A DNA stretch of 26,388 bases from IMG/VR virus record IMGVR_UViG_3300032665_000168, positions 1-26,388 of that record; one strand, given 5' to 3'. The notes below the pieces were generated by a model that worked only from the letters and a program-made list of their open reading frames with translations, was not told the origin of the DNA and ran no database searches. Made by a program: the position numbers and the translations under genes. The stretch's first letter is position 1; the number at the start of each line of letters is the position of its first letter. Shown piece after piece: positions 15,465 through 26,244 of this stretch. The stretch comes from a virus.

Positions 15465-15674
15465 CTATCCGGCGATGCCCCGCTCCTCCTCGATGAGGGC
15501 GATGAGGGCGACCCGGATGATCAGGATCACCCTCCGCTTGGCCTTCCTGACCCGCAGGCCGTGCCGTTCCTCCAGGACCGGGCAGATCTTGAGCCGAAAT
15601 GTCTCGATGCGCATGCGGGGGTTGTAGAGGGCCGCCGCCTCCTTGACGGTGAGCAACTCGGGGTCCATCACCAT
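15465..15674 (-). CDS. Small HTH-like DNA-binding protein after terminase
   Basis: This is a 69-aa basic protein starting at ATG 15674, 5 bases after GGAGG and overlapping the terminase large subunit stop. The N-terminal LLTVKEAAALYNPRMRIETFRL resembles excisionase/MerR-type winged-helix starts, where 'LTVKEAA' leads into the HTH. The C-terminal part has the basic KAKRR followed by a hydrophobic strand/helix (VILIIRVALIALI). It probably binds DNA. Its position at the terminase-to-structural junction, right before a gap with tandem repeats, suggests a regulator or packaging helper. The family is not certain. Confidence 0.6.
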   Translation of the reverse strand: MVMDPELLTVKEAAALYNPRMRIETFRLKICPVLEERHGLRVRKAKRRVILIIRVALIALIEEERGIAG

Positions 15675-17014
15675 GCCGCCTCCTGGGACTTGCTGCGCTC
15701 GGCCATGTCCTCGTTGATCATCAGGAAGAACCCGTCTCGTGCGGTGCTCAGTTCGGTCAAGGCCCAGACCAGGGCGTCGACCCGGTCGGGACTCTTGGTG
15801 GACAGGGCGGGATCCCAGTCACACATCTGGTCCTCAAGGGGGCCGAAGGCTCCGACGTGGTGCACGCGGCCCTGCTCGTAGAGGGCGGCAATCGGCTCGG
15901 CCCGGATCTGCTTGCCCCTGGTGGCGTGGACAGCCGTAAATGGGATGTCGGCGTCCTTGTGCCGGATGACCGCCTCGATCATGTCCCCGCCGTTGTTCAC
16001 CTCTCCGATGACCCGGTCAGCCTGGTTGACGTGGTAGGCCAGCACGACCACGCTGGCCCACTGATCAGGGCTGGCGATCAGGGAGCGGTCATCCAGGATG
16101 TAGAAGTGCTGGGGGCTCTGGTTGTCCACCCCGGCGGCGATGATGCCGGTGAGGTCCGAATCCTCCTTGGCGGTGACGGCCGGGTCAACACCGATCACCA
16201 CGCGGACCAACTCGGGTCGGTCGGTGATCCTGCCCGCGTCGATCTGGGACCGGTGCCAGAGGGCGCCCGGGTTGTCCTCCAGCAGCTCGGCCATGATCTC
16301 CTGCCGGCCCAGGCGGGTGCCCTCATATTTCCCAAGGATCTTCTTCAGGAAGGTCGGGGCCAAGTTGCGCTGGTTGTCGTAGGTGCTGCCCCGGGTGATG
16401 AAGGTAGTTGGGTCGGCGATGATGCTCTTCACCAGGGCGTTGGGCCGCGGGGTGGTGGTCACGACCCCCTGGGGCTTGGCGCCGAGCCGCAGGCCGAAGG
16501 CAAGCTGATCCCATGCCTCGGCGTAGCGCCAGGCGCCGACCTCGTCAGACCAGAACTTCATGTGCTGTTTGCCCCGTAGGCGCTCCGGTTCGTCCGCGGT
16601 GAAGATCAGGGACCTGGCGCCGTTCGGCCATTCCAGCCTGCGCTTGGACGGGAGGTAGACCGGGCGCTCGTCGGGCGGGCAGATGGCAAGGATGCCGCTC
16701 TCGCCCTCGATCATGATGTCCCGGGCGTCGTCCGCGGTGGCACCCACCAGGGATACCAGGGGGAAGTCCTTCACCCACTGGCGCACCGTCTCGGCCCCGA
16801 CCCTGGTCTTGCCCCAGCCGCGCCCGGCCATCGCCAGCCAGGTGACCCACTCGCCCGGGGGGATCATCTGGGAGGGCCGGGCCCACCAGCCCCAGTCGAA
16901 CTCCAGGCCCGCGACCTCGGCGTCCGTCATGGCGTCCAGGCGCCGGCGGCGCTCCTCCACTGGCAGGAGCTTGAACAGGTCGGCCCGGGAGGTTTCAGCC
17001 GAGGAGCTTTGCAT
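15668..17014 (-). CDS. terL: Terminase large subunit
   Basis: I choose ATG 17014 (448 aa), which has AGGGAAAGGG just upstream; a TTG at 17059 would add 15 residues and is less likely. The ATPase domain has Walker A GRGWGKTR (about 64-71), a Walker B-like MKFWSDE (152-158) and the coupling motif TTTPRP (186-191). The nuclease domain starts at VVIGVDPAVTAKEDSD (candidate Asp277), with VIGEVNNGGD and DRVDALVWAL holding further acidic metal ligands. This matches Terminase_6-type enzymes. It powers packaging of DNA into the prohead through the portal and cuts concatemers. The small subunit gene is directly upstream and overlaps its start. Confidence 0.95.
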   Translation of the reverse strand: MQSSSAETSRADLFKLLPVEERRRRLDAMTDAEVAGLEFDWGWWARPSQMIPPGEWVTWLAMAGRGWGKTRVGAETVRQWVKDFPLVSLVGATADDARDIMIEGESGILAICPPDERPVYLPSKRRLEWPNGARSLIFTADEPERLRGKQHMKFWSDEVGAWRYAEAWDQLAFGLRLGAKPQGVVTTTPRPNALVKSIIADPTTFITRGSTYDNQRNLAPTFLKKILGKYEGTRLGRQEIMAELLEDNPGALWHRSQIDAGRITDRPELVRVVIGVDPAVTAKEDSDLTGIIAAGVDNQSPQHFYILDDRSLIASPDQWASVVVLAYHVNQADRVIGEVNNGGDMIEAVIRHKDADIPFTAVHATRGKQIRAEPIAALYEQGRVHHVGAFGPLEDQMCDWDPALSTKSPDRVDALVWALTELSTARDGFFLMINEDMAERSKSQEAAW

Positions 17015-17576
17015 AGACCCTTTCCCTGGATTCCTGCTGAACCTGGACGGTGACGCCAACGTTGACCTGGGTGGCCGGCTGGTCTCGCATCAGGCCCATG
17101 ATCTTGGCCAGGCTATCCAGGGCGCCCTTCTTGTCGGCCAGTTTGATCTTGTGCAGGGTCGCCAGGAGGACCGAGTCCGGGGCCTCGATGTCCTTGAGTT
17201 GCCGGATCTCCAAGCCCGAGATGGCCCGGCGGGCGTCCTCGGGGATCTCGTGCAGTGGCTTCATGGACCCGTCGGGGTTGAATAGGTCGATGGGGTCCAG
17301 GAGGGCCAGCCGCTCATACTCCTGCATGACCCTATCTGCTGTGACCGCCAGCCTTGCGGTCTGTTCCGTAGCTCGCTCCTTAACATCGGCCTGAATGTTA
17401 AGTCTTTTTAGGAGTTGGCACCCCTGAACGCCCGCCGTCTTCGGGCTATAACCCGCACGGATAGCGGCTTGCGTGGCGTTCCGGTCCACCATGAATTCTT
17501 CGACAAACCGGGCCTGGCGGTCCAAGGCCACCACGGGCTTCTTCCTGGGTTGCCTCTTCGCCTTCGGCTTGGTCAC
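16995..17576 (-). CDS. terS: Terminase small subunit
   Basis: This 193-aa protein starts at GTG 17576, overlapping the previous stop as GTGA and preceded by GGAGAAG. After a basic tail (KPKAKRQPRKK) it has LDRQARFVEEFMVDRNATQAAIRAGYSPKTAGVQGCQLLK, the typical Terminase_2 N-terminal HTH ('F..eyl.d.nat.Aa.raGYs...a...g..ll'). The central part is helical (oligomerisation), and the C-terminal tail probably contacts the large subunit. It recognises the packaging site and loads the large subunit. The gene overlaps the large subunit start by about 20 bases. An inverted repeat inside this gene could be a packaging-related site (listed separately). Confidence 0.93.
   Translation of the reverse strand: MTKPKAKRQPRKKPVVALDRQARFVEEFMVDRNATQAAIRAGYSPKTAGVQGCQLLKRLNIQADVKERATEQTARLAVTADRVMQEYERLALLDPIDLFNPDGSMKPLHEIPEDARRAISGLEIRQLKDIEAPDSVLLATLHKIKLADKKGALDSLAKIMGLMRDQPATQVNVGVTVQVQQESRERVYAKLLG
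17379..17402. repeat. Inverted repeat inside terS (8-bp arms)
   Basis: CTTAACAT (17379-17386) and ATGTTAAG (17395-17402) are perfect inverted copies with an 8-base spacer, set in an AT-rich patch inside the GC-rich terminase small subunit gene. On the plus strand it is followed by TCTTTTTA. Packaging initiation sites often lie in or near terS, so a TerS-binding or pac role is possible. It may also be a chance feature of the coding sequence. Confidence 0.35.
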
Positions 17577-17773
17577 GGCTTCTCCTCAGCCCAAGCCTTC
17601 CGGAGGACCTGGAGCAGTTCGTGGAAGCCGAGGGGGGCGGCTGGGATGAGCCCGTGGGGCACACCCAGGACCAGGAGGTAGCAGAGGTTCGTCCTCCAGG
17701 CCGGGCGGATCCTTGGCGGGGTGGGCGGGGTGGTGGGCTTGTAGGTGGGGCGGGTGGGGCGGTCCTGGCTCAT
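17573..17773 (-). CDS. Small Pro/Thr-rich protein with hydrophobic middle, function unknown
   Basis: This is a 66-aa protein starting at ATG 17773, which overlaps the stop of the 30-aa gene as ATGA. The first ~25 residues are rich in Pro, Thr and Arg. A moderately hydrophobic stretch follows (NLCYLLVLGVPHGLIPAAPLGF, about 29-50), then a short charged helix. It may associate with membranes, but the segment is interrupted by Pro and His. No family is recognised. It is the last gene before the terminase pair and is probably translated by coupling. Confidence 0.5.
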   Translation of the reverse strand: MSQDRPTRPTYKPTTPPTPPRIRPAWRTNLCYLLVLGVPHGLIPAAPLGFHELLQVLRKAWAEEKP

Positions 17774-17862
17774 AGGTCGTCCTTGAAGTTGGCGAAGGGT
17801 AGGAACATCAACGCGATCAACCCGCATAGGCAGAGGACCAGGAACCGGGCGAGGCGGATCAT
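17770..17862 (-). CDS. 30-aa single-membrane-span microprotein
   Basis: This tiny gene begins at ATG 17862 with a good GGAGGT site and overlaps its neighbours as ATGA on both sides. It encodes MIRLARFL followed by a strongly hydrophobic stretch (VLCLCGLIALMFLPFANF) and the tail KDDL. The basic N-terminus and acidic C-terminus predict one membrane span with the N-terminus inside. Position between a NinB-like gene and a small Pro-rich gene gives no function. Exact coupling and a strong ribosome site make it a credible real gene despite its size. Confidence 0.6.
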   Translation of the reverse strand: MIRLARFLVLCLCGLIALMFLPFANFKDDL

Positions 17863-18329
17863 GCGACCTCCCGGGGCCCGGGAATGTAGTGGGGCTCCTC
17901 GAAGCGGCCGTCCACGTAGGAGAGGTCGATCGGGGGGTCCTGCTGGGCGGAGATGGCGTGGAGATACTCCAGGAAGGCGCTGAACTCCCGCTTGCCCATC
18001 GCCCGGGTGCTGGCGCCCAGGAAGACCATGCCGCCGGTCAGGTTCGGGGCGACCCGGCCCATCTCCTTGCGGAAGTCCACGGTGTGGATGTTCTTCCAGT
18101 CCTCGGGGGTCAAGTGGCCAGGCTTGCCGTTCACCCACCAGGGCTTCTGCTTCGACCAGGCCGCGAGGATCGGCCAGAGTGCCCGATTCTGCTCGATGCT
18201 ACGGGTCGGGTCGCCGATCTCGATCACGAGCTGCTGGCCGGCGGTGATCGCATCGGCAGCGGCCCGGTGGATCTCGGCGAAGGCGTAGTCCAGGCCAGAG
18301 AGGGCGGAGATCAGGAACGGGCGCTTCAT
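17859..18329 (-). CDS. NinB-like recombination protein
   Basis: This is a 156-aa protein starting at ATG 18329 (MKRPFLISALSGLD), overlapping the upstream stop as ATGA. It carries NinB family signatures: DPTRSIEQNRALWPILAAWS (the 'R..eQN...w..l' motif), then HLTPEDWKNIHTVDFRKEM, and APNLTGGMVFLGASTRAMGKREFSAFLEYLHA, matching the family's 'P...G..v..g.sT..m...e...l.e.i'. NinB (Orf) proteins bind single-stranded DNA and help replace RecFOR in phage recombination. Here the gene is in the late part of the leftward early block, separate from the ERF/exonuclease module on the other strand. Confidence 0.8.
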   Translation of the reverse strand: MKRPFLISALSGLDYAFAEIHRAAADAITAGQQLVIEIGDPTRSIEQNRALWPILAAWSKQKPWWVNGKPGHLTPEDWKNIHTVDFRKEMGRVAPNLTGGMVFLGASTRAMGKREFSAFLEYLHAISAQQDPPIDLSYVDGRFEEPHYIPGPREVA

Positions 18330-18586
18330 GCCGCACCGTCCCGCTTGCCCTGGGTCCTGCTGGCCGCCAGCAATGGGCATTCCTGGATCTCCCGGGTCGC
18401 CCAGCGGGCGAAGGTCTCCAGGCTGACCCGGCGGGTGGCGCCGGCCGGGAGGACCGCGCCGTTCGTCACGGGGGGTCCGCCGATCTGCCGGTAGACCATC
18501 GTGTCGGCGTCGATGCTGACCACTTCGCGGAGTTGGAGGCCGCCTCCGATGCAGACCATTCCGGGTTCAATGTCCAACATTTTCAT
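18326..18586 (-). CDS. Hypothetical 86-aa phage protein
   Basis: It starts at ATG 18586, overlapping the upstream stop as ATGA, with AAGAAGG upstream. The first half is strand-like (PGMVCIGGGLQLREVVSIDADTMVYRQIGG) and resembles a small SH3-like barrel; the second half is helical and basic (RRVSLETFARWATREIQE). I recognise no family. It is coupled to the NinB-like gene and probably belongs to the DNA metabolism or regulatory accessory genes of the early operon. Confidence 0.6.
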   Translation of the reverse strand: MKMLDIEPGMVCIGGGLQLREVVSIDADTMVYRQIGGPPVTNGAVLPAGATRRVSLETFARWATREIQECPLLAASRTQGKRDGAA

Positions 18587-18888
18587 GAGATTGCCTTCTT
18601 TTTGGTGATCGGCGACGGCTTGGCAGGCTGGGGGTGGCTGTTGCGGTAGGCCAGACGCTTGCGGAACTGGTATTCATCCTCGGCCTCCCAGCATTCCGGG
18701 TGGCCGCAGGTCTGACGGTTGCCCTGGAAGACGTTCGGGCTGTCCTGGTCGAACACGTTGGGCATGAGCGGCATGTCTTCCCGCTCGTAACCCAGGAACT
18801 GCGCCCCACACTGGGGACAGGCCAGGAGGTGGGTCTTGGTCCAGCCGGGTTGGTCCACGGCACCCCGGGTGAATAGCTGGATGTTCAT
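18583..18888 (-). CDS. Zinc-finger-like 101-aa protein
   Basis: This 101-aa protein starts at ATG 18888, overlapping the replication gene stop as ATGA. Two Cys pairs are visible: CPQC near residue 24 and CGHPEC near residue 61, about 35 residues apart, consistent with a single zinc-ribbon or zinc-knuckle fold. The C-terminal third is basic (FRKRLAYRNSHPQPAKPSPITKKK). A nucleic-acid-binding role in the replication/recombination block is plausible, but no family is recognised. Confidence 0.6.
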   Translation of the reverse strand: MNIQLFTRGAVDQPGWTKTHLLACPQCGAQFLGYEREDMPLMPNVFDQDSPNVFQGNRQTCGHPECWEAEDEYQFRKRLAYRNSHPQPAKPSPITKKKAIS

Positions 18889-19733
18889 GCCGGCACCTCG
18901 GTTTGATTCGCCTTGGCCCGGTTGTGCCAGATCAGGGCCGCGTAGGGATGCCAGTTGGCGCCCTCGCCGTTGTCCTCGCGCTTGCCAAAGAAATACTGCG
19001 GGGCCTTGATTTTCAATGGTTTAGAGCCGAGGTAGTCCCGCCAGGACTCGACCAGGAGGTCGGGGGTGATGGCGGTGTTGCCGGCCATGAGCCCCCGGAT
19101 CCGCTCGGCAAGGGTTGCCACGTCCACCCGGATGATCCGGCCGTCCGAGTCTTGGGAGGGCGTGAGGAAGTAGATCTCGTTCACCGTGTCCACGACTGGC
19201 TGGGGGATGATCGGCTCGTCCTTGGGCTTCTCGGCCACCCCCCGCGGCTTTCTCGGCGACCGCCCCTTCCGCGCAGCGGAGGGGGTTGGGGGTAGTACTT
19301 CTTTTTCTCTTTCTTCTTCTCCTTCTTCTTCCGGACCCATTTGCTTAAGCATTTGCTTCCCAGAATCGGAAGCATTTGCTTTAGCATTTGCTTTCGGAGC
19401 GAGCCCCCCCCTTCGCCCGGTCTCCCGCAGGCGCTCCACCTTCGTCTCGTAGGCGTTCAACTCGGCCTTGAGTCGGATGCTCTCAAGCATCCCAGGGTGG
19501 CATTCGCTTGCCGAAAAGAAAGCAGCGAGCGAAAGCATATGCTTAAGCATTTGCTTTGGTGTCGTTCCAGGGACCAACCGGCTAAGTGCGGCAGGGTCAG
19601 AAGGTATGGCTCCATCGTTGCAGTTGATCGCCCACAACCGGACAAGAATCCCGACTTGTTCATGGGACAATTGCAGGATTTTTGAGTCCGAAAGGAACTC
19701 TTTGACGTGGAGTTTGAACCATGTGGCGCCCAT
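18885..19733 (-). CDS. Phage replication initiator-like protein (DUF1376/lambda O-like role)
   Basis: I start this at ATG 19733 (MGATWFKLHVKEFLSDSKI, 282 aa), where it overlaps the previous stop as TGATG. The N-terminal ~60 residues resemble DUF1376-type domains: WFKLHVKEFLSDSKI, then LSHEQVGILVRLWAIN and GAIPSDPAALSRLVPG. A low-complexity acidic/basic linker follows (about 115-170, including EEEGEEEREKE). The C-terminal domain (about 180-280) has LAERIRGLMAGN and a closing WHPYAALIWHNRA. Proteins with this layout usually act as phage replication initiators or helicase loaders. The gene contains a striking iteron array, which supports an O-like role. No helicase or loader gene is visible beside it. 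Confidence 0.7.
   Translation of the reverse strand: MGATWFKLHVKEFLSDSKILQLSHEQVGILVRLWAINCNDGAIPSDPAALSRLVPGTTPKQMLKHMLSLAAFFSASECHPGMLESIRLKAELNAYETKVERLRETGRRGGLAPKANAKANASDSGKQMLKQMGPEEEGEEEREKEVLPPTPSAARKGRSPRKPRGVAEKPKDEPIIPQPVVDTVNEIYFLTPSQDSDGRIIRVDVATLAERIRGLMAGNTAITPDLLVESWRDYLGSKPLKIKAPQYFFGKREDNGEGANWHPYAALIWHNRAKANQTEVPA
19298..19332. other. 35-nt uninterrupted pyrimidine tract beside iterons (possible unwinding element)
   Basis: All 35 plus-strand bases are C or T (purines on the coding strand), with a T-rich composition unlike the surrounding GC-rich gene. It encodes the Glu/Lys/Arg-rich linker of the replication protein. It ends two bases before the first 12-bp repeat. A strand-asymmetric, AT-richer tract next to iterons inside the initiator gene is the arrangement of the lambda origin, so it may serve in strand opening. 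Confidence 0.5.
19335..19556. repeat. Iteron-like array: six 12-bp repeats in three tandem pairs (putative origin)
   Basis: The 12-bp word AAGCATTTGCTT (plus strand) occurs at 19347-19358, 19370-19381 and 19545-19556. Variants lie at 19335-19346 (last nine bases match), 19382-19393 (one mismatch) and 19533-19544 (AAGCATATGCTT, a perfect palindrome). They form three head-to-tail pairs with a 12-bp step; pairs one and two are 11 bases apart and the third lies about 140 bases away. Pairs one and three are read as KQMLKQM and KQMLKHML, but pair two as KANAKANA in another frame, so the DNA word, not the peptide, is what is kept. Likely role: binding sites for the initiator encoded here. Confidence 0.75.
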
Positions 19734-19903
19734 CAGAACGGAATCTCCCAGAAGGGCTTGATGCCGCAGGATTCGGCCCACTGGTGGTATTCCTCATACC
19801 GCGGGTCGTTGGTCTCGCATTCGTCAAAGCTGTTGATGTGGCACCAGGCTTCGTAGGACCCTTCGGTCCAGCGCGTCCGGTTGAAGGGGATGATCTCGGC
19901 CAT
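19733..19903 (-). CDS. Small acidic 56-aa protein upstream of the replication gene
   Basis: The gene starts at ATG 19903 with an excellent AAGGAGG site, overlaps the previous stop as ATGA and ends in TGATG at the replication gene start. The protein (MAEIIPFNRTRWTEGSYEAW ... ending GIKPFWEIPF) is acidic and rich in Trp, Tyr and Cys. There is no membrane segment and no family I recognise. The good ribosome site and overlaps on both sides make it a confident gene; its function is unknown. It may be an accessory of replication given its place. Confidence 0.65.
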   Translation of the reverse strand: MAEIIPFNRTRWTEGSYEAWCHINSFDECETNDPRYEEYHQWAESCGIKPFWEIPF

Positions 19904-20235
19904 CAGGCAACCTCCTTGATCCGGATGCCGTAGCGTTCCAGGACGAGCTTGCGCTTGAGGGTATAGAGCGGGGTCCGGACGCCTTTGACGTCCTCCACGA
20001 CCTGCTGGCCGGTCTTGCAGTCGATGTACACGAAGTCGGCGAGGTAGAACGCCTCGCGCTCGATGAGCTTCCCTTTGGCGTCCTTCTGGGCCGGGCAGAC
20101 CACGAATTTGACCTGCTCCTGCAGATCCCGGATGACGCCGGCCCGCTCCATGAGGTGCAGCTCCTGGGCGCGGCGGGCCTCCGCTTTGCTATCGTAGCCG
20201 TTGCAGGGGATGGAATGGTATTTGGCGTTGCTCAT
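19903..20235 (-). CDS. DUF1064 family nuclease-like protein
   Basis: This 110-aa protein carries the DUF1064 pattern: KYHSIPCNGYDSKAEARRAQ at the N-terminus, ELHLMERAGVIRDLQEQVKF, then FYLADFVYIDCKTGQQVVEDVKG and TPLYTLKRKLVLERYGI. The Glu in the N-terminal helix with the D...(E)xK of ADFVY and VEDVKG fits a small PD-(D/E)XK-type nuclease fold. Family members are found in phage early regions and are proposed to act on DNA junctions or ends. ATG 20235 overlaps the antirepressor stop as ATGA. Confidence 0.8.
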   Translation of the reverse strand: MSNAKYHSIPCNGYDSKAEARRAQELHLMERAGVIRDLQEQVKFVVCPAQKDAKGKLIEREAFYLADFVYIDCKTGQQVVEDVKGVRTPLYTLKRKLVLERYGIRIKEVA

Positions 20236-21023
20236 GCCGGCAGGTCCCGAGGCCCAGGGGTCTCAAGCCAAGTGATACCCTTGGGGGATAGGAGGGGACG
20301 GGTGTCGGCGTCCCATTCGGCCTGGAGGCGGCGCTGCCCTTTGCCGGTGATGAGGGTCTTTCGGGATACCCGGTCCATGCCGTGGACATCCTCGAAAAGG
20401 CGCTCCACCACCACAAAAAGGCCCTGTTCAACCCAACGCTGGTAGGGCTCGGTGGAACCGGCGATCAGATAGCCCTTCTGGCGAAGCCATTGGAAGAACC
20501 GATTCTGGCCGGTGTCACCAAGGATCTTGGCGAACTCCCGGATCATGATGGAGTCCTTGGTCCCGCTCACCCTGTCAGCGAAGGCGGCGGCCGGCTCGAG
20601 TTCCTTGACCTTGCTTTCCAGGGTCAGAACCTTCTCGGTGTATCCGAGGAGCAGGTTCCGCATTGAGGCTGGGTCGTTGAGGATAGCCATGGGGTCGCGC
20701 TGGGCCCCGTAGGACCCGGTTTTCCGGATCGTGGGCAGGATTTCATCCATGACCTTCGACTCGAACGCCTGGGCATCCGGCAGTTTCGATTTTAGGACCA
20801 GGCGGAAAACATCGCCTTCACGGATGATCTTGCTGACTTGAGGACCACCAGCAGAAGGGGTGACCGTTTCGTTCACCCCTTTGCAGTGGTCGCGGATCGC
20901 CTTGAGTGGGTTGCTGTACCCAAGCACCTTGGCAACGTCTGCGGCGATGAACCAGGGTTCCCCATTGAGCAATACCACCCGAACAGGGTTGCCCCGGAAG
21001 TCGAAAGAGTTTAGATTGTTCAT
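20232..21023 (-). CDS. BRO-N/KilAC phage antirepressor
   Basis: This is a 263-aa protein starting at ATG 21023 behind AAAGGAGGG. Residues about 1-110 form a BRO-N domain: FRGNPVRVVLLNGEPWFIAADVA, VLGYSNPLKAIRDHC, IIREGDVFRLVLKSKLPDAQ and EILPTIRKTGSY. Residues about 140-245 match the KilAC domain: MIREFAKILGDTGQNRFFQWLRQKGYL, then a strand region and KTLITGKGQRRL. Antirepressors of this type bind and inactivate phage repressors. Placed early in the leftward lytic operon, and with a repressor that lacks a self-cleavage domain, it is a good candidate for the induction trigger. Confidence 0.92.
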   Translation of the reverse strand: MNNLNSFDFRGNPVRVVLLNGEPWFIAADVAKVLGYSNPLKAIRDHCKGVNETVTPSAGGPQVSKIIREGDVFRLVLKSKLPDAQAFESKVMDEILPTIRKTGSYGAQRDPMAILNDPASMRNLLLGYTEKVLTLESKVKELEPAAAFADRVSGTKDSIMIREFAKILGDTGQNRFFQWLRQKGYLIAGSTEPYQRWVEQGLFVVVERLFEDVHGMDRVSRKTLITGKGQRRLQAEWDADTRPLLSPKGITWLETPGPRDLPA

Positions 21024-21047
21024 AGGTCGGCCCTCCTTTGGCCGGTG

Positions 21048-21233
21048 CTAGCAGACCCCCGGTTGCACGGGGGTTTCTTCGTTGTGGTTGGGACTGAGCA
21101 GCGCATAGAGTCCGGTGGCGGCACGGCGTAGGTGCGGCATCGGCTCGGAGAGTTTTCCCAGACACGCAGCATCGGCGTCCTGGATGTTGTGCAGGATCAA
21201 GAGGAGGACTTCGCGGTCGACGAGGATTTTCAT
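21048..21233 (-). CDS. Hypothetical 61-aa protein
   Basis: This starts at ATG 21233, overlapping the HTH gene stop as ATGA. The N-terminal half is helical and hydrophobic with acidic residues (VDREVLLLILHNIQDADAACLG); the rest is mixed and ends in a Pro-containing tail. There is no motif or membrane span. It is co-translated with the HTH gene and may be a partner or an unrelated small early protein. Confidence 0.5.
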   Translation of the reverse strand: MKILVDREVLLLILHNIQDADAACLGKLSEPMPHLRRAATGLYALLSPNHNEETPVQPGVC

Positions 21234-21496
21234 GCGGACGTATCCTCCATGACCATGTGACCCAGTTCCCGGTGGATGTAATCCACAAGGGTCCGGTCCC
21301 CGGTCAGGACCTCGAACACGAGAAGTTCGGTGAGGTCGAACTCGTGCGGGTGTTCGGGCGAGAGCTTCCTGCTGATCGGTCCCTCGGTGGTTCCCAGGGC
21401 ATCCGCCAGGGTCTTCCGGTTCACCCCGGAGCGGATAAGCGCCAGTCCCGCCAAATTCTTGAGCGCAAGAGTATGCCGATTGATCTGGTCAGGCAT
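21230..21496 (-). CDS. Small HTH regulator (Cro/CII-like)
   Basis: This is an 88-aa protein with a helix-turn-helix pattern at about residues 12-45: ALKNLAGLALIRSGVNRKTLADALGTTEGPISRKLSPEH, where the 'tLAdaLGtt.g.iSRkl' part is the recognition unit. The C-terminal half (FDLTELLVFEVLTGDRTLVDYIHRE) resembles the oligomerisation part of CII-type or prophage activators. It follows a 70-base gap. It is likely a second regulator of the early operon. Its ribosome site is weak. Confidence 0.75.
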   Translation of the reverse strand: MPDQINRHTLALKNLAGLALIRSGVNRKTLADALGTTEGPISRKLSPEHPHEFDLTELLVFEVLTGDRTLVDYIHRELGHMVMEDTSA

Positions 21497-21566
21497 GGCC
21501 TATCTTTCGAATTGTAGGAGTGTTTTAGGAGCGGAAATGGAGCCGAAAAGAGAATCCCCGCCCGGG
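21497..21566 (-). promoter_or_regulatory. Possible internal promoter with direct repeats before HTH gene
   Basis: On the minus strand a TACAAT hexamer (21510-21515) lies just before the HTH gene, without a good -35 box at the expected distance. The sequence CTCCTA occurs twice at an 11-bp step around it. Direct repeats without a -35 box can mark activator-dependent promoters, but this is weak evidence. Confidence 0.3.
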
Positions 21567-21713
21567 TCAGGGCAGGGCATGGGAACGCTGATTGTCTTTG
21601 CGACCCTGGACGAGCTGCGGCTGTGGGGTCCCCTGGCGGTACGGGAGATGCTCAAGCGCGCCCGCCGTCCGCAGGTCACAGGGGTTGCCCAGCTCGTGGA
21701 GTTCGTAGGCCAT
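21567..21713 (-). CDS. Small 48-aa protein after the Cro-like gene
   Basis: It starts at ATG 21713, overlapping the Cro-like stop as ATGA, with AAGGCGG upstream. It encodes a polar peptide beginning MAYELHELGNPCDLRTAGAL and ending in a Gln/Arg/Asp-rich tail. It has no recognised domain. Coupling to the upstream gene suggests it is translated, but composition gives little support, so I keep moderate confidence. Confidence 0.4.
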   Translation of the reverse strand: MAYELHELGNPCDLRTAGALEHLPYRQGTPQPQLVQGRKDNQRSHALP

Positions 21714-21937
21714 CAGACCGCCTTGTCCAGGGGAGATGGCTGATGCTCGGGGGGCGTCTCGAGTTCCAGGAGCCAGACGGCGCGGATCGCTCCGTTGGTG
21801 GCTGCTTCGATCCGCTTGGCCAGCTTCCGGCCAGGGTAGATCGACCCCTTGAGGACCCCGTGCAGGTGGGAATAATCTGCGTCGAGGTCCCGAGCGAGGG
21901 CAGAGATGTTCGGGACAGAGGAACGAAAATCGGTCAT
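21713..21937 (-). CDS. Cro/YdaS-like HTH regulator, predicted leaderless
   Basis: This is a 74-aa protein with a compact HTH (ISALARDLDADYSHLHGVLKGSIYPGRKLAKRIEAATNG). It matches YdaS/Cro-like antitoxin-type regulators in which 'LARxL..d.shlh.vl.G...pg..lA.rIe.at.G' is common. It diverges from the CI-like gene across an 81-base control region. No Shine-Dalgarno sequence precedes ATG 21937 (the minus strand reads CTCCCCTC there), and the promoter predicts a start exactly at the A of the ATG. It is likely the Cro-like lytic regulator opening the leftward operon. Confidence 0.8.
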   Translation of the reverse strand: MTDFRSSVPNISALARDLDADYSHLHGVLKGSIYPGRKLAKRIEAATNGAIRAVWLLELETPPEHQPSPLDKAV

Positions 21938-21972
21938 GAGGGGAGTATAGGTTTAAAACCTGGAACATTCAA
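21937..21972 (-). promoter_or_regulatory. Leftward early promoter with start at the ATG
   Basis: On the minus strand: -35 TTGAAT (21972-21967), 17-bp spacer, -10 TATACT (21949-21944). The expected start, 7 bases downstream of the last -10 base, is position 21937, the A of the regulator's ATG. This would give a leaderless mRNA. The operator palindrome fills the spacer. Confidence 0.7.
21949..21961. promoter_or_regulatory. Operator palindrome in the leftward promoter
   Basis: AGGTTTAAAACCT is an odd palindrome with 6-bp arms and one central base. It sits between the -35 and -10 boxes of the leftward promoter. The same GGTTTAAAACC core, in the same orientation on the plus strand, recurs in the rightward promoter at 22823-22839. 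It is probably bound by the CI-like repressor and perhaps the Cro-like protein. Confidence 0.65.
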
Positions 21973-21985
21973 CCCCAGCCCATAT

Positions 21986-21996
21986 GGAAATTTTCC
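21986..21996. promoter_or_regulatory. Second palindrome in the switch region (GGAAATTTTCC)
   Basis: GGAAATTTTCC is an 11-bp odd palindrome with the same GG-3-1-3-CC layout as the main operator but with the A/T order reversed. It lies 36 bp (centre to centre) from the first operator and just upstream of the CI-like gene start. It could regulate the repressor promoter, or be a chance AT-rich palindrome. Confidence 0.4.
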
Positions 21997-22018
21997 CCAC
22001 AATCCTGAAGATGGGGAC

Positions 22019-22402
22019 ATGGACGAATGGGCATACAGAAAGCAGTTCCGGGAGCGCGTCGCCGAGTTCCGATCCAAGCACCACCTGTCCCCAGAGGAGA
22101 TGGCGACCAGGCTGGGGCTGAAGCTCACAACCTATTCCGGCTACCTCTACAAGAAGAAGGGGAAGCCTGGCGTCGAGGTGCTCCAGCTCGCCGCCGGCCT
22201 GTTCGGGTGTTCCGTCCTGGAGTTCATGGATGACCCGGGTTCACCTGTCGCCGGCGTCACCCAGGGATCATTTGGTGAGGCGACCGAGCAAGAACGGGTT
22301 ATGCTCAGGGCAATGTCCCAAGACCTCGCCAAACTGAACCCCGACCAGCGCAGAGCCGCATTCGAGGCATGGAGCGCCATCGTCAGGGGTTTCCTTTCTT
22401 AA
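22019..22402 (+). CDS. CI-like phage repressor without peptidase domain
   Basis: I start at ATG 22019 (MDEWAYRKQFRERV, 127 aa). Upstream in-frame codons overlap the divergent gene and promoter. Residues about 8-62 form an HTH_3-type domain: FRERVAEFRSKHHLSPEEMA, RLGLKLTTYSGYLYKKKGKP, VEVLQLAAGLFGCSVLEFM. The remaining ~55 residues are helical (EATEQERVMLRAMSQDLAKL, DQRRAAFEAWSAIVRGFL) and probably oligomerise. There is no S24 self-cleavage domain (no Ser/Lys catalytic part). It faces the Cro-like gene across a shared control region and is probably the lysogeny repressor. The ribosome site is weak (GGGGAC). Confidence 0.82.
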   Translation: MDEWAYRKQFRERVAEFRSKHHLSPEEMATRLGLKLTTYSGYLYKKKGKPGVEVLQLAAGLFGCSVLEFMDDPGSPVAGVTQGSFGEATEQERVMLRAMSQDLAKLNPDQRRAAFEAWSAIVRGFLS

Positions 22403-22412
22403 GGAACCGCTC

Positions 22413-22721
22413 ATGGCAGACATCAAATGCCCCAAGTGCGACCGCACCATTGACTCAGGATCGAAGGTCTGCCCCTTCTGCCAGGACGGCTTGGCAACAG
22501 TGCAGGGATTCAAACCGCCCAAGCCTGAATCTGATGGTGTGGCGACTTTCCTGAATGTCCTGGGCGTCATCGTCCTGGTTGGCGGCGTAATCGGGGCCAT
22601 CGTTGAGGGCTCGCCAATGCCGCTGATCTACGGCATGGCGGGTGGCGCGATGCCGATAGGGCTGGCCCGGATCATCGGAATCCTCAACATGGTCAAGGCG
22701 AACACAGCCCCGACCAAGTAG
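22413..22721 (+). CDS. Zinc-ribbon membrane protein in the repressor operon
   Basis: This 102-aa protein starts at ATG 22413 after AAGGAA, 10 bases after the repressor stop, and ends just before a strong terminator. It begins with a zinc ribbon (CPKC at 6-9, CPFC at 20-23), then a short polar linker, then two hydrophobic segments (about 44-64, FLNVLGVIVLVGGVIGAIVE, and about 68-92). It is therefore a small inner-membrane protein with a cytoplasmic zinc head. Being co-transcribed with the repressor it should be made in lysogens. Superinfection exclusion or lysogenic conversion is a reasonable guess; no family is certain. Confidence 0.72.
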   Translation: MADIKCPKCDRTIDSGSKVCPFCQDGLATVQGFKPPKPESDGVATFLNVLGVIVLVGGVIGAIVEGSPMPLIYGMAGGAMPIGLARIIGILNMVKANTAPTK

Positions 22722-22741
22722 CCCAACCCCACCCTGAACAG

Positions 22742-22763
22742 CCCCGGCTTGCCGGGGTTTTTT
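22742..22763 (+). terminator. Rho-independent terminator of the repressor operon
   Basis: CCCCGG-CTTG-CCGGGG forms a perfect GC-rich 6-bp stem (7 bp if the C/G closing pair is counted) with a tight loop, followed immediately by six T residues. It lies 20 bases after the zinc-ribbon gene stop and separates the repressor transcript from the rightward early promoter. Confidence 0.93.
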
Positions 22764-22812
22764 ATGTCCAATCAAAGTTACAACATTGTGACAAATCTCT
22801 CGAACTGAGGGC

Positions 22813-22849
22813 TTGACTCCGCATGGGTTTAAAACCCATACTCTGCTCA
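22813..22849 (+). promoter_or_regulatory. Rightward early promoter
   Basis: On the plus strand: -35 TTGACT (22813-22818), 18-bp spacer, -10 CATACT (22837-22842), predicted start near 22849. It follows the terminator and precedes the recombination operon. The -10 and spacer are covered by the operator palindrome. The spacing is one base over the ideal. Confidence 0.6.
22823..22839. promoter_or_regulatory. Operator palindrome in the rightward promoter
   Basis: ATGGGTTTAAAACCCAT is a perfect 17-bp odd palindrome (8-bp arms, one central A). It shares the core GGTTTAAAACC with the leftward operator at 21949-21961 and occupies the equivalent place between the -35 and -10 boxes. It is longer and more symmetric than the leftward site, so it may bind more tightly. 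Confidence 0.75.
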
Positions 22850-22890
22850 TCGAAGTTCACCCGCTCCTACCCTTTCACCCCCACAACAAG

Positions 22891-22915
22891 AAGCCCCCTG
22901 GATCAGAGGGGGCTT
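22891..22915 (+). promoter_or_regulatory. Strong hairpin in the leader of the rightward transcript
   Basis: AAGCCCCCT (22891-22899) pairs fully with AGGGGGCTT (22907-22915) around a 7-base loop (GGATCAG). It lies about 40 bases after the predicted start and 30 before the first gene, with no T-run after it. It is not a standard terminator; an antitermination, pausing or RNA-stability element is possible. Confidence 0.6.
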
Positions 22916-22944
22916 CCACAACCGCGCCTCATGCAGGAGGACAC

Positions 22945-23025
22945 ATGACCATCATCCGCTTCAAACCCACGAGGCGCAAGCCCCGCAACCCGGAGCCGAC
23001 CGCTCCGATCAGGAGGGCCGCCTGA
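22945..23025 (+). CDS. 26-aa basic microprotein, first gene of the rightward operon
   Basis: It starts at ATG 22945 behind an excellent AGGAGG site and ends in TGATG, overlapping the next start. The peptide (MTIIRFKPTRRKPRNPEPTA, then PIRRAA) is strongly basic and Pro/Arg-rich, like a small RNA- or DNA-binding tail. A short Arg-rich first gene in a phage early operon recalls the place of antiterminators such as N, but this is far shorter and the link is only suggestive. It could also be a leader peptide for coupling. Confidence 0.5.
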   Translation: MTIIRFKPTRRKPRNPEPTAPIRRAA

Positions 23026-23186
23026 TGTGCAACCTCCTCGACATGACCTTCCGCCCCTCTGGCCGCATCGAGCGATGCGCGGCCTGCGGCGACCAACTGA
23101 CCATCGAAATGGAATTCGACCAGCACCTCTGCTGCGAGTGCCAGAAGGACGTGGCCGAGCTGCACGACGGGAGGGAGGCTTGCTGA
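23025..23186 (+). CDS. 53-aa zinc-ribbon protein
   Basis: ATG 23025 overlaps the previous stop (TGATG) with GGAGGG upstream. The protein MCNLLDMTFRPSGRIERCAA continues CGDQL..., then CCEC and a charged helix. The CAAC and CCEC pairs, about 17 residues apart, predict one small zinc ribbon. Its stop overlaps the next start as TGATG. Such small zinc proteins are common in phage early operons and function is unknown. Confidence 0.6.
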   Translation: MCNLLDMTFRPSGRIERCAACGDQLTIEMEFDQHLCCECQKDVAELHDGREAC

Positions 23187-23413
23187 TGTCCCACCGCTGC
23201 CAGAAAGCCGCAGACGAGCTGGCCCGACGCCTCCTCATCTTCCGTGAACTCCAGGCCAAGTGCCGCGAGCGTGGCGACGATGGTGAGTGGATCGACGCCC
23301 GCGACATGTGGAACCCCGCAGACCAGGCCGCCATCGACGAATTTCTCGCTGCCCGCGCCGAGCTGTTCTGCCTCCAACCCCTCTTCCCCGACTTCAAGGA
23401 GCAATCAGTATGA
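23186..23413 (+). CDS. 75-aa helical protein, function unknown
   Basis: It starts at ATG 23186 (MSHRCQKAADELARRLLIF), with GGAGG upstream and a TGATG junction. The sequence is mostly helical, with charged heptad-like parts and WIDARDMWNPADQAAIDEFLAARAELF in the second half. There are no metal or catalytic motifs. Its stop overlaps the ERF gene start as ATGA, so the two are probably co-translated; it may be an accessory to the recombination module. Confidence 0.6.
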   Translation: MSHRCQKAADELARRLLIFRELQAKCRERGDDGEWIDARDMWNPADQAAIDEFLAARAELFCLQPLFPDFKEQSV

Positions 23414-24204
23414 CGCCGCCCAAGAATGCCGCCCCCCTCATGGAAGCGCCTCCTCTGGAGCTTCTCCCCATCGCGCAGCCCGGCGTTTCGATCACCCCCT
23501 TCCGCCAGAGCCCGACGCCGATGATGCTGATCGAGCGCGCCCTTTCCCAGGGCTCCGACATCGACCTTGACCGCATGGAGCGGCTCATGGAGATGCAGGA
23601 GCGGTGGGACAAGGAGAACGCCCGGAAAGCCTTCCTGGAGGCCATGAGCGCCTTCCGCGCCAACGCCCCCGAGCTGCACAAGAACTGCACCGTGGACTTC
23701 TCCAGCGCCAAGGGGCGCACTCATTACAAGCATGCCGACCTGGAGGAGGTCTCCATGCCCATCGGTCGCGTCATGGGTCCGCTGGGCCTGTCCTTCCGCT
23801 GGGAGCCCAAGCAGATCGGCGGCCGGATCCATGTCACGACCATCCTGCAGCACTCCGCCGGCCACTCCGAGCAGCTCACCCTCGAAGGCGCTCCTGACGA
23901 CTCTGGCAACAAGAACAACATCCAGCAGGTCGGCTCCACGATCACCTACCTCCAGCGTTACGGCCTCCTGGCCATCACCGGCATGGCCGTCCGGGGCCAG
24001 GACAGCGACGGACGCATCGCCCAGGCCCCCATCGACACCGAGGCCGACGAGCAGTACATCCGCGCCGCCAGGACCCTCCAGGACCTCCAGGAGATCTACA
24101 CCGAGGTCTACCTGCGCATCAACCCCACCAAGAACAAGACGGCTCTCGACGCCATCGCCAAGGCGAAGGACAAGCGCAAGGCCGAACTTCAGAAGGGAGC
24201 CTAG
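23410..24204 (+). CDS. erf: ERF-family single-strand annealing recombinase
   Basis: This 264-aa protein starts at ATG 23410 (ATGA overlap, AAGGAG upstream). After a Pro-rich N-terminal tail of ~35 residues it shows the ERF core: ERWDKENARKAFLEAMSAFRANAPELHKN, the 'Y.Yadle.v' motif as THYKHADLEEV, LSFRWEPKQIGGRIHVTTIL, and GSTITYLQRYGLLAITGMA. The last ~60 residues are a charged helical tail. ERF proteins bind single-stranded DNA and anneal homologous strands during phage recombination and circularisation. The exonuclease-like gene directly after it makes a classic annealase-exonuclease pair. Confidence 0.93.
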   Translation: MTPPKNAAPLMEAPPLELLPIAQPGVSITPFRQSPTPMMLIERALSQGSDIDLDRMERLMEMQERWDKENARKAFLEAMSAFRANAPELHKNCTVDFSSAKGRTHYKHADLEEVSMPIGRVMGPLGLSFRWEPKQIGGRIHVTTILQHSAGHSEQLTLEGAPDDSGNKNNIQQVGSTITYLQRYGLLAITGMAVRGQDSDGRIAQAPIDTEADEQYIRAARTLQDLQEIYTEVYLRINPTKNKTALDAIAKAKDKRKAELQKGA

Positions 24205-24206
24205 AA

Positions 24207-24869
24207 ATGAAGCTCAACATCATCAACGTCGAGCAGGGAACGCCCGAGTGGAAGCAGGCCCGGGCCGGCCGCGTCACCGCCAGCCGCATCAAGGACGTGC
24301 TGGCCAAGGGCAAAGGCTCCGCCGAATCCGCCTCCCGCGCCGACTTCCGGATGGAGATCGTCTGCTCCATGCTCACCGGGGAGCCCCAGGAGGACGGGTT
24401 CTTCAGCAAGGACATGGCCTGGGGGGTCGATCACGAGTCCGAGGCCCGGGAGGCATACAGCGTCGAGAACGGCGTCCTGGTGGATCAGGTCGGCATGGTC
24501 GTCCACATCGGCGACGACCGCTGCGCGGCCAGCCCCGACGGCATGGTGGGATGGGACGGCGAGAACGAGCCCGAGGGCCTGGTCGAGATCAAGTGCCCCA
24601 AGACCAAGACCCACATCGGCTACCTGATGGCCGGCGGCGTCCCCACCGAGTACCAGCCCCAGATGCTCTGGCAGATGGCCTGCACGGGCGCGCAGTGGTG
24701 TGATTTTGTTTCCTACGACCCCCGGCTGTCCGAGGCCCTGCAGCTCTACATCTGCCGGTTCCCCCGCGATGAGGCCCGGATCGAGGAGATCCAGAACGAG
24801 GTTTCCCGGTTCCTGGACGAGTGCGAGAAGTTGCACGACACCCTTGCCAAGATGGGCGAGGCGGCCTGA
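24207..24869 (+). CDS. YqaJ-like viral recombinase / lambda-type exonuclease
   Basis: This 220-aa protein lies 2 bases after the ERF stop. It matches the YqaJ family: GTPEWKQARAGRVTASRIKDVL near the start (the 'gt.eW...R.g.ita S' motif), AWGVDHESEAREAY (about 71-84), ASPDGMV (about 108-114, catalytic Asp111), LVEIKCPK (about 125-132, Glu127 and Lys129) and YQPQMLWQM. These are the PD-(D/E)XK active-site residues, all present. It should digest one strand of DNA ends, producing single strands for the ERF protein. Confidence 0.92.
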   Translation: MKLNIINVEQGTPEWKQARAGRVTASRIKDVLAKGKGSAESASRADFRMEIVCSMLTGEPQEDGFFSKDMAWGVDHESEAREAYSVENGVLVDQVGMVVHIGDDRCAASPDGMVGWDGENEPEGLVEIKCPKTKTHIGYLMAGGVPTEYQPQMLWQMACTGAQWCDFVSYDPRLSEALQLYICRFPRDEARIEEIQNEVSRFLDECEKLHDTLAKMGEAA

Positions 24870-25915
24870 TGGCAGTCCGCGGCAAGTCCCCCATCACCGT
24901 CATGGAGCCCCGCGCGGTCGATGTCCCCTGGGCCACGGAAGGCACCAGCGCCCTGGATTCGGCCCCCCTGGAGGGGACCATCGAGCCGCTGGATCTCGTC
25001 AAGATCGAGCCGGCCAACGCACTGGAGCTGTTCACCGTCTCCGGCGCCCTGACCCCGATCCTGGAGCGCCTGGCCCAGGAGGTGCGCAGCATCATCCTCG
25101 ACCCGGGGACTCCCCAGGGCCGGGAGGCCATCAAGTCCCTGGCCTTCAAGGTCGGGAAGGCCAAGAACTACATCGAGGAGCAGAAGGTCGCCCTGAACCG
25201 GAAGCTGAAGGAGCAGCCCAAGCTCGTGGACGCCAATGGCAAAGCCGCCTGGGACTTCCTGGAACGGCTCCAGAAGGACACCCGCAAGCCCCTGACCGAC
25301 TGGGAAGCCGAGCAGGAGCGCCTCGAGGCGGCCCGGGTCGAGGCCGAGCGCCAGGCGGCCCTGGCCCTGGAGATCGCCAACTCCCATGAGTTCGCCATCC
25401 TGCTCGACCGGCAGATCACCGCCGAAAAGGAAGCCGCCCGGCTGGCCAAGATTGAAGCCGACCGGCTGGCCCAGGAGCGGATCCAGGAGGAGGCCGAGCG
25501 CAAGGCCCAGGAAGCCGCCAAGGCCGAACTGGAGGCCGCCGCGCGCCGGGAGCAGGAGGCCAAGGACCGCGCCGAGAAGGCCGAGGCCGACCGGATCGCC
25601 GCCGAGGCCCGGGCCGCCCAGATGCGCCAGGAGAACCTGGAGCGCGCAGCCCGGGAGCGCGAACTTGCCGACCAGCGGGTCGCCAAGGCGGCCCAGGAAG
25701 CCACCGAGCGCGAGCATGCGCGGCAGCTCGCCGCCCAGAAGGCCGAGGAAGAGGCGACCGCCGCCCGGACCAAAGACAAGGAGCACCGCGCCACCTTCAA
25801 CAGCGAGGCCCTGACCGACCTCATGAAGATGACCGGCATGAACGAGGATGCCGCCAAGAAGGTCATCGTCGCCATCGCCATGGGCCGGGTGCGCCACATC
25901 CGGATCGAATACTGA
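24869..25915 (+). CDS. Long coiled-coil protein in the recombination module
   Basis: This 348-aa protein starts at ATG 24869 (TGATG overlap). Residues about 45-150 are a helical globular part (ELFTVSGALTPILERLAQEV, AWDFLERLQKDTRKPLTDWE). Residues about 150-300 are a continuous Ala/Glu/Arg/Lys coiled coil. The last ~45 residues (FNSEALTDLMKMTGMNEDAA, then KKVIVAIAMGRVRHIRIEY) match a C-terminal module I have seen in prophage proteins beside Erf- or RecT-like genes. Its function is not established. Position suggests a partner of the annealase/exonuclease, perhaps an organiser of DNA ends. The function is inference only. Confidence 0.75.
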   Translation: MAVRGKSPITVMEPRAVDVPWATEGTSALDSAPLEGTIEPLDLVKIEPANALELFTVSGALTPILERLAQEVRSIILDPGTPQGREAIKSLAFKVGKAKNYIEEQKVALNRKLKEQPKLVDANGKAAWDFLERLQKDTRKPLTDWEAEQERLEAARVEAERQAALALEIANSHEFAILLDRQITAEKEAARLAKIEADRLAQERIQEEAERKAQEAAKAELEAAARREQEAKDRAEKAEADRIAAEARAAQMRQENLERAARERELADQRVAKAAQEATEREHARQLAAQKAEEEATAARTKDKEHRATFNSEALTDLMKMTGMNEDAAKKVIVAIAMGRVRHIRIEY

Positions 25916-26244
25916 TGCGCCCGCACCCCAAGACCCCCGCCTTCCGCAGCCAGAAACTGCGCGACCTGGCCCGCTTCGCCCCCCGCTGCATGTCCTGCGG
26001 CGGGGGCAGCGAGGGCGAGATGGTCGGCTGCCATTCCGACGCCCTGGAGGACGGCCACGGCGCCGGCCACAAGGCCCACGACGTGCTGGCCTACTGCTGC
26101 GCGACCTGCCATCACCGGATCGACGGGCGCCCCGAGGGCGGCCCCGCCCTCCCGTTGGCCGAGCGTCGAACCATGTTCTACCGGGCCGCCTACCGGACCC
26201 AGGCGTGGCTGTTCCTGGAAGGGTACCTGCAGGTGGTCGCATGA
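25915..26244 (+). CDS. YbcO/DUF1364-like nuclease
   Basis: This 109-aa protein starts at ATG 25915 (TGATG overlap). It carries the family pattern: FRSQKLRDLARFAPRCMSC near the start, VGCHSDALEDG in place of the family's 'aH...' segment, GAGHKAHDVLAYCCATCHHRIDGR as the conserved core, and a C-terminal helix (FYRAAYRTQAWLFLEGYLQ). The Cys/His residues fit an HNH-like, zinc-containing nuclease. Members occur in lambdoid recombination/nin regions and are proposed to process recombination intermediates. Confidence 0.82.
   Translation: MRPHPKTPAFRSQKLRDLARFAPRCMSCGGGSEGEMVGCHSDALEDGHGAGHKAHDVLAYCCATCHHRIDGRPEGGPALPLAERRTMFYRAAYRTQAWLFLEGYLQVVA

Follow-up and report, generated by a model that had tools for sequence, protein, structure and literature searches.

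The initiator gene and its repeats

The DNA analysed here (the window) is a whole contig of 26,388 bases, a virus record with a GC content of 65% and a preference for the codons GCC, AAC and CAG. Positions 15668-26241 correspond to a temperate-phage early region, the left part of which carries antirepressor, CII-like, DUF1064 nuclease, initiator, NinB and terminase genes, and the right part genes for an Erf annealing protein, a YqaJ exonuclease and an HNH protein. The features in and around the initiator gene are the following:

18885-19781, minus strand: putative replication-initiator gene holding the candidate origin (ORF; 298 aa from the GTG at 19781)
19479-19733, minus strand: predicted N-terminal winged-helix domain, probably iteron-binding (AlphaFold2, model residues 1-85)
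19545-19556, minus strand: iteron 1 in gene order, exact; reads KQML; within the N-domain coding region
19533-19544, minus strand: iteron 2 in gene order, AAGCATATGCTT, one mismatch; reads KHML; within the N-domain coding region
19404-19418, minus strand: GRRGG, part of the basic motif RLRETGRRGGLAPK where the helix that follows the wing ends; a GG-type motif, predicting AGCAAATGCT
19382-19393, minus strand: iteron 3, one mismatch; reads ANA
19370-19381, minus strand: iteron 4, exact; reads ANA
19347-19358, minus strand: iteron 5, exact; reads KQML
19335-19346, minus strand: iteron 6, ACCCATTTGCTT, two mismatches; reads KQM; abuts the pyrimidine tract
19298-19332, no strand: 35-nt tract, pyrimidine on the plus and purine on the minus strand, the longest such run of the contig; putative DNA unwinding element
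19293-19352, no strand: least stable 60-bp segment of the 26.4 kb contig (nearest-neighbour profile)
18888-19178, minus strand: C-terminal domain, predicted with modest confidence (AlphaFold2, model residues 186-282); probable contact to the helicase machinery

The ATG at 19733 (282 aa) is a likelier start of the initiator gene than the GTG at 19781. The six words form three head-to-tail pairs with a step of 12 bp, share the DNA core GCAWATG and are near-palindromes. Their number, pairing and positions agree with the original prediction of six 12-bp iterons; exact copies account for three of the six, the others having one or two mismatches. The 35 uninterrupted pyrimidines described beside the repeats were found at 19298-19332, the runner-up purine or pyrimidine run in the contig being 15, and the peptides KQMLKQM, KQMLKHML and KANAKANA are encoded as claimed, the word being read in two frames of the initiator gene (minus strand, 18885-19781). 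If both strands are searched with up to two mismatches, the window word has 10 matches, compared to 0.78 ± 0.81 in shuffled sequences, and none of 100 shuffles reached 10. GC skew, suggested earlier as a check, showed no switch at 19.3 kb in the window. The split pair at 19533-19556, in the N-domain coding region, may have a role in looping or autoregulation. As in the window, extra words 137-177 bp off the main array were observed in five DUF1376 genes (L007, L063, L070, L106 and L123), some of them lying inside the DNA that codes for the N-domain.

The protein matched the Pfam family DUF1376 with an E value of 9e-4 (20 bits), below the cut-off of 30.1 bits; this match and the shared gene plan suggest that it is likely a distant DUF1376 relative. 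In the same Pfam scan, extended to E 1, DUF1376 was the sole family found, and neither the lambda O nor the RepA_N family was matched. PHROG matches, all weak, were to replication initiation and primosomal proteins. An AlphaFold2 model built with 54 relatives has pLDDT values above 90 over most of residues 11-110 and a confident N-domain consisting of a wing followed by a long helix. The linker, which covers the two iteron pairs further downstream in the gene (the remaining pair falls in the N-domain coding region), is of low confidence, and the C-terminal domain is less certain than the N-domain. Structure matches of the N-domain are winged helices, including the DnaD N-domain and iteron-binding RepA initiators (Z 6-7); Z values of 6.3-6.9 with the RepA and DnaD N-domains are at the same level as those with other winged helices, so that the matches to the model support a winged-helix fold rather than membership in a family. 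Searching solved structures by sequence produced no useful hit.

Pfam and PHROG profiles revealed no helicase or loader family close to the initiator gene in the window, a contig that may be incomplete. Among named phages, tblastn gave no match for the initiator gene, and blastn with the region around it touched the neighbouring DUF1064 gene only.

Conservation of the word as DNA and its recurrence in other phages

The window gene contains six cores; with codons redrawn from contig usage the mean was 0.41 and none of 5000 redraws reached six, whereas synonymous shuffling of codons within the gene gave a mean of 1.98 and reached six once in 5000. The word is written in codons that are rare in the contig, and the probability of writing ANA as GCAAATGCT is 0.0005 per site under contig codon usage. 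The redraws bear out the proposal that conservation of the word across two frames results from selection on DNA.

Paired AGCAAATGCT words occur in at least 119 viral contigs, compared to 2 with the reversed word as control, and only 23 were found in 257 Gb of bacterial and archaeal genomes, about nine of these in the same kind of gene. Many of the viral pairs sit in linkers of replication proteins: among 63 distinct ORFs with word pairs, 17 matched DUF1376, 15 DUF6291 and 2 Lin1244_N, and many were labelled primosomal or replication initiation in PHROGs. Word spacing across the family ranges from 10 to 12 bp, the 12-bp step not being fixed, and the plan, described originally as a new origin, is shared with these contigs. 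The same design of putative origin recurs in hundreds of other phages.

A low-complexity KQML/ANA linker maintained at the protein level and devoid of DNA function would fit the low model confidence in part of the linker, and such linkers are often free to vary. This explanation retains hardly any plausibility: relatives read the word core in all three frames (47, 9 and 31), the codons of the word are rare in the contig, and the lag-11 and lag-10 repeats described below are impossible as peptide repeats. Related genes that kept the peptides and scrambled the DNA word would have spoken for it; the opposite was found, relatives keeping the word and changing the peptide. As part of the origin reading as a whole, the KQML/ANA peptides are very probably a mere reading of DNA kept for binding.

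A set of 80 viral loci, representing 62 distinct linkers, was drawn by the DUF1376 N-domain alone, without use of the word. De novo repeat detection in the 62 linkers yielded two elements, AGCAATGC, present in 29 of them, and a TTCACC tract, present in 45. Exact lag-11 repeats, which cannot be peptide repeats because 11 is not a multiple of 3, were present in 19 of 43 genes (2.9 with codons shuffled, maximum 8), and, among named phages, in 6 of 17 (0.33 expected). In DUF6291 genes lag 10 was found in 15 of 35 (1.07 expected); their words differ and precede GTAAAT/GATAAT tracts. In 42 of 82 genes (9.7 expected) and, in a second set, in 15 of 22 (2.6 expected), the 45-bp window of lowest stability was located 0-90 nt beyond the last word. 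Judged by their sequences, genes picked by the N-domain alone are organised alike, their words being different ones and followed by an apparently easily melted tract. A universal word for all DUF1376 proteins was considered and rejected, the words differing by subfamily. Several named relatives have the gene beside a DnaB, DnaC-like (helicase loader), P-like or DnaA-like gene, and in some it lies after Cro or CII. In genome-wide comparisons of eight named phages the array neighbourhood was not the least stable place in most, and the mean distance of the array to the nearest GC skew extreme was no better than chance.

The linkers with TTCACC hexamer tracts after AGCAATGC iterons (loci L151-L230) come from phages of 35-65% GC; these tracts are not AT-rich and may serve in single-strand binding or helicase loading. 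In ydaU of Rac-SA53, a Rac prophage relative (L235, 856-1926), a GKASVQARR motif and degenerate AACG/GTTC-like sequence were seen with no clear iterons, which have perhaps decayed.

A group of marine phages has a short initiator that lacks the linker and precedes a DnaB-like gene; their words are found between genes, behind that for the terminase large subunit, about 5-6 kb from the initiator and the DnaB-like gene. This intergenic site consists of 3-4 AGCAAATGCT words with an 11-bp step and AT-rich GATAA repeats, a placement suggesting that the array is able to move out of the gene, as would be possible for an origin. Such intergenic AGCAAATGCT arrays were seen in L074 (at 12305) and about 20 similar contigs (L008, L015, L027, L028, L037, L068 and others).

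A candidate origin inside its own initiator gene

The region is very probably a phage replication origin located inside its own initiator gene, at which the N-domain would bind the iterons, the tract would melt and the C-terminal domain would recruit the helicase. Codon-level selection, the melting tract, the winged-helix N-domain and recurrence in the family agree on this reading, which is the best supported one and upholds the original prediction on this point. What the computations show is a word conserved as DNA, repeats at helical spacing across the family, a neighbouring stretch of low stability, the family context of the gene and the coupling between motif and word (see below). Binding of the iterons, melting, helicase recruitment and the start of replication at the site are deduced by analogy, the steps being modelled on lambda O (PMC7466680, PMC5043065) and pSK41 Rep (PMC5703833). 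The winged-helix N-domain, with its basic helix end GRRGGLAPK, would bind the GCAWATGC iterons, and bound N-domains could form a helically stacked array at the near-helical spacing. Strain in the array might then open the tract beside the last iteron, and the C-terminal domain would recruit the replicative helicase, directly or via a loader not seen in the contig.

Operators are often near-palindromic, as are the words of the window, and iteron-binding initiators often autoregulate. The words could thus be operator sites through which the protein or another regulator controls the operon, rather than an origin. We consider this improbable, since in roughly half of the family members or more the words lie in mid-gene beside the melting tract, the repeats are at helical spacing, and in the marine phages the words accompany an AT-rich repeat a long way from the initiator gene.

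The origin reading has parallels in known systems. In lambda the iterons are in the middle of the initiator gene O beside an AT-rich tract (PMC7466680, PMC5043065), and two features of a lambda-type origin, direct repeats in mid-initiator gene and an adjoining low-stability, strand-asymmetric tract, are present in the window. Some relatives of the window gene also resemble lambda in having Cro or CII upstream and a helicase-loader gene downstream. In contrast to lambda, the window iteron is about 11-12 bp instead of about 19, the N-domain belongs to a different family, and no P-like neighbour was seen in the contig. The lambda parallel drawn originally stands for iterons beside a tract in mid-initiator gene and fails for the protein, whose closest family is DUF1376 and not lambda O.

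The staphylococcal RepA_N protein pSK41 Rep has a winged-helix N-domain with similarity to DnaD, and its binding boxes are in the central, linker-coding part of the rep gene (PMC5703833). The window gene likewise has sites in its linker-coding part, and its N-domain is predicted to be a winged helix; unlike pSK41 Rep, its product is from a phage, not a Gram-positive plasmid, and lacks a RepA_N family match, the likeness in fold being Z 6-7 only, which is in the common range. Six imprecise 11-bp repeats in the initiator gene 18 of Salmonella phage L were proposed to be an origin (PMC8022706). They, too, are inside an initiator gene, whereas that case is a single sequence-based proposal and the word is different, being closer to the AACG..GTT class. 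Nearest to the window are the DUF1376, DUF6291 and Lin1244_N 'primosomal' phage proteins, which share the gene plan, the motif position and the linker arrays and are annotated as proteins of unknown function or primosomal proteins. Searches of the literature outside subscription journals found no description of an origin in DUF1376, DUF6291 or Lin1244_N genes, nor of a rule linking motif and word. In-gene iteron origins are already known (lambda, pSK41) or proposed (phage L), and what is new is that a short motif predicts the iteron.

Phages commonly encode DUF1376, DUF6291 and related proteins, and reading their linkers (KQML/ANA, PSPSPS, NVNVNV, NHKPITNN) as DNA would give a predicted origin for many such phages.

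Coupling between a basic motif and the iteron word

In more than one family, a short stretch of residues behind the N-domain is associated with the iteron word downstream of it. GGRPK (GGRP) is found with AACCCA (7/8 and 10/11), GNLKRW with ATCGC (6/6), GxxGG with AGCAAATGCT (GCAWATGC) and ARW with AGCAATGC (GCAWTGC); GKxSAxxR goes with AACGnCCGTTC in 7/18 and 4/8, the rest being mostly without a recognised word. The window fits the rule, with GRRGG and AGCAAATGCTT. The short initiator of the marine phages is an exception, having no GxxGG motif despite its AGCAAATGCT word.

The motif classes were defined after the first sets had been seen, and the regular expressions were fixed before a new set was drawn; some were too narrow, missing 'SANSRW' in L378 and several GxxSAxxR variants. 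Part of the same data had already revealed the word classes, and relatives are not independent. Held-out tests comprised the new set and a word-first scan for AACGACCGTT, another held-out query being excluded as it had only its own kin. In the held-out set 37 of the 38 genes with a word class obeyed the rule, although, the genes being related, these are not 37 independent events; the sole exception was an RW motif with an RW word. The scan for paired AACGACCGTT gave 63 distinct ORFs, 41 of them with strict SAxxR and none with GGRP, ARW or GNLKRW, the remainder being mostly near variants and about five differing. With AGCAAATGCT as the starting word, GxxGG was present in 28 of 37, and GGRP or GNLKRW in none. 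DUF6291 pairs with N-domains at least 40% identical and different motifs had different words in all 182 cases, some with N-domains 72-75% identical. The motif is kept as protein with its codons free, and the word is kept as DNA with its frame free. Independent pairs on the N-domain tree showed the expected direction nearly always where the word differed; with 2-3 supported switches per class this test is not significant alone.

These sequence comparisons make it about an even chance that specificity for the iteron resides in the basic motif, at the helix end behind the winged-helix domain, in a code common to several families. It is also conceivable, if on balance rather doubtful, that the origin is real and that motif and iterons are swapped together as a recombination cassette, with another part of the protein actually reading the word. 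Adjacency of motif and words and the 2-3 independent pairs per class on supported branches fit such a cassette, whereas it does not readily account for the same pairing in DUF1376, DUF6291 and Lin1244_N, for different words going with different motifs in N-domains up to 75% identical, or for motif codons varying freely while the word DNA does not. If the specificity code is true, the origin sequence could be predicted from the protein. A causal motif-word rule would explain how initiator and origin specificity change jointly, and would make origins predictable from sequence and yield a panel of orthogonal small replicons for testing; the pairing of initiator and origin is now directly testable through motif-to-word prediction. 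In five loci (L521, L524, L545, L549 and L565) the AACGACCGTT pairs come after KTHPELYEELK...EEFKRLT and before PSPSPS, a class outside the rule.
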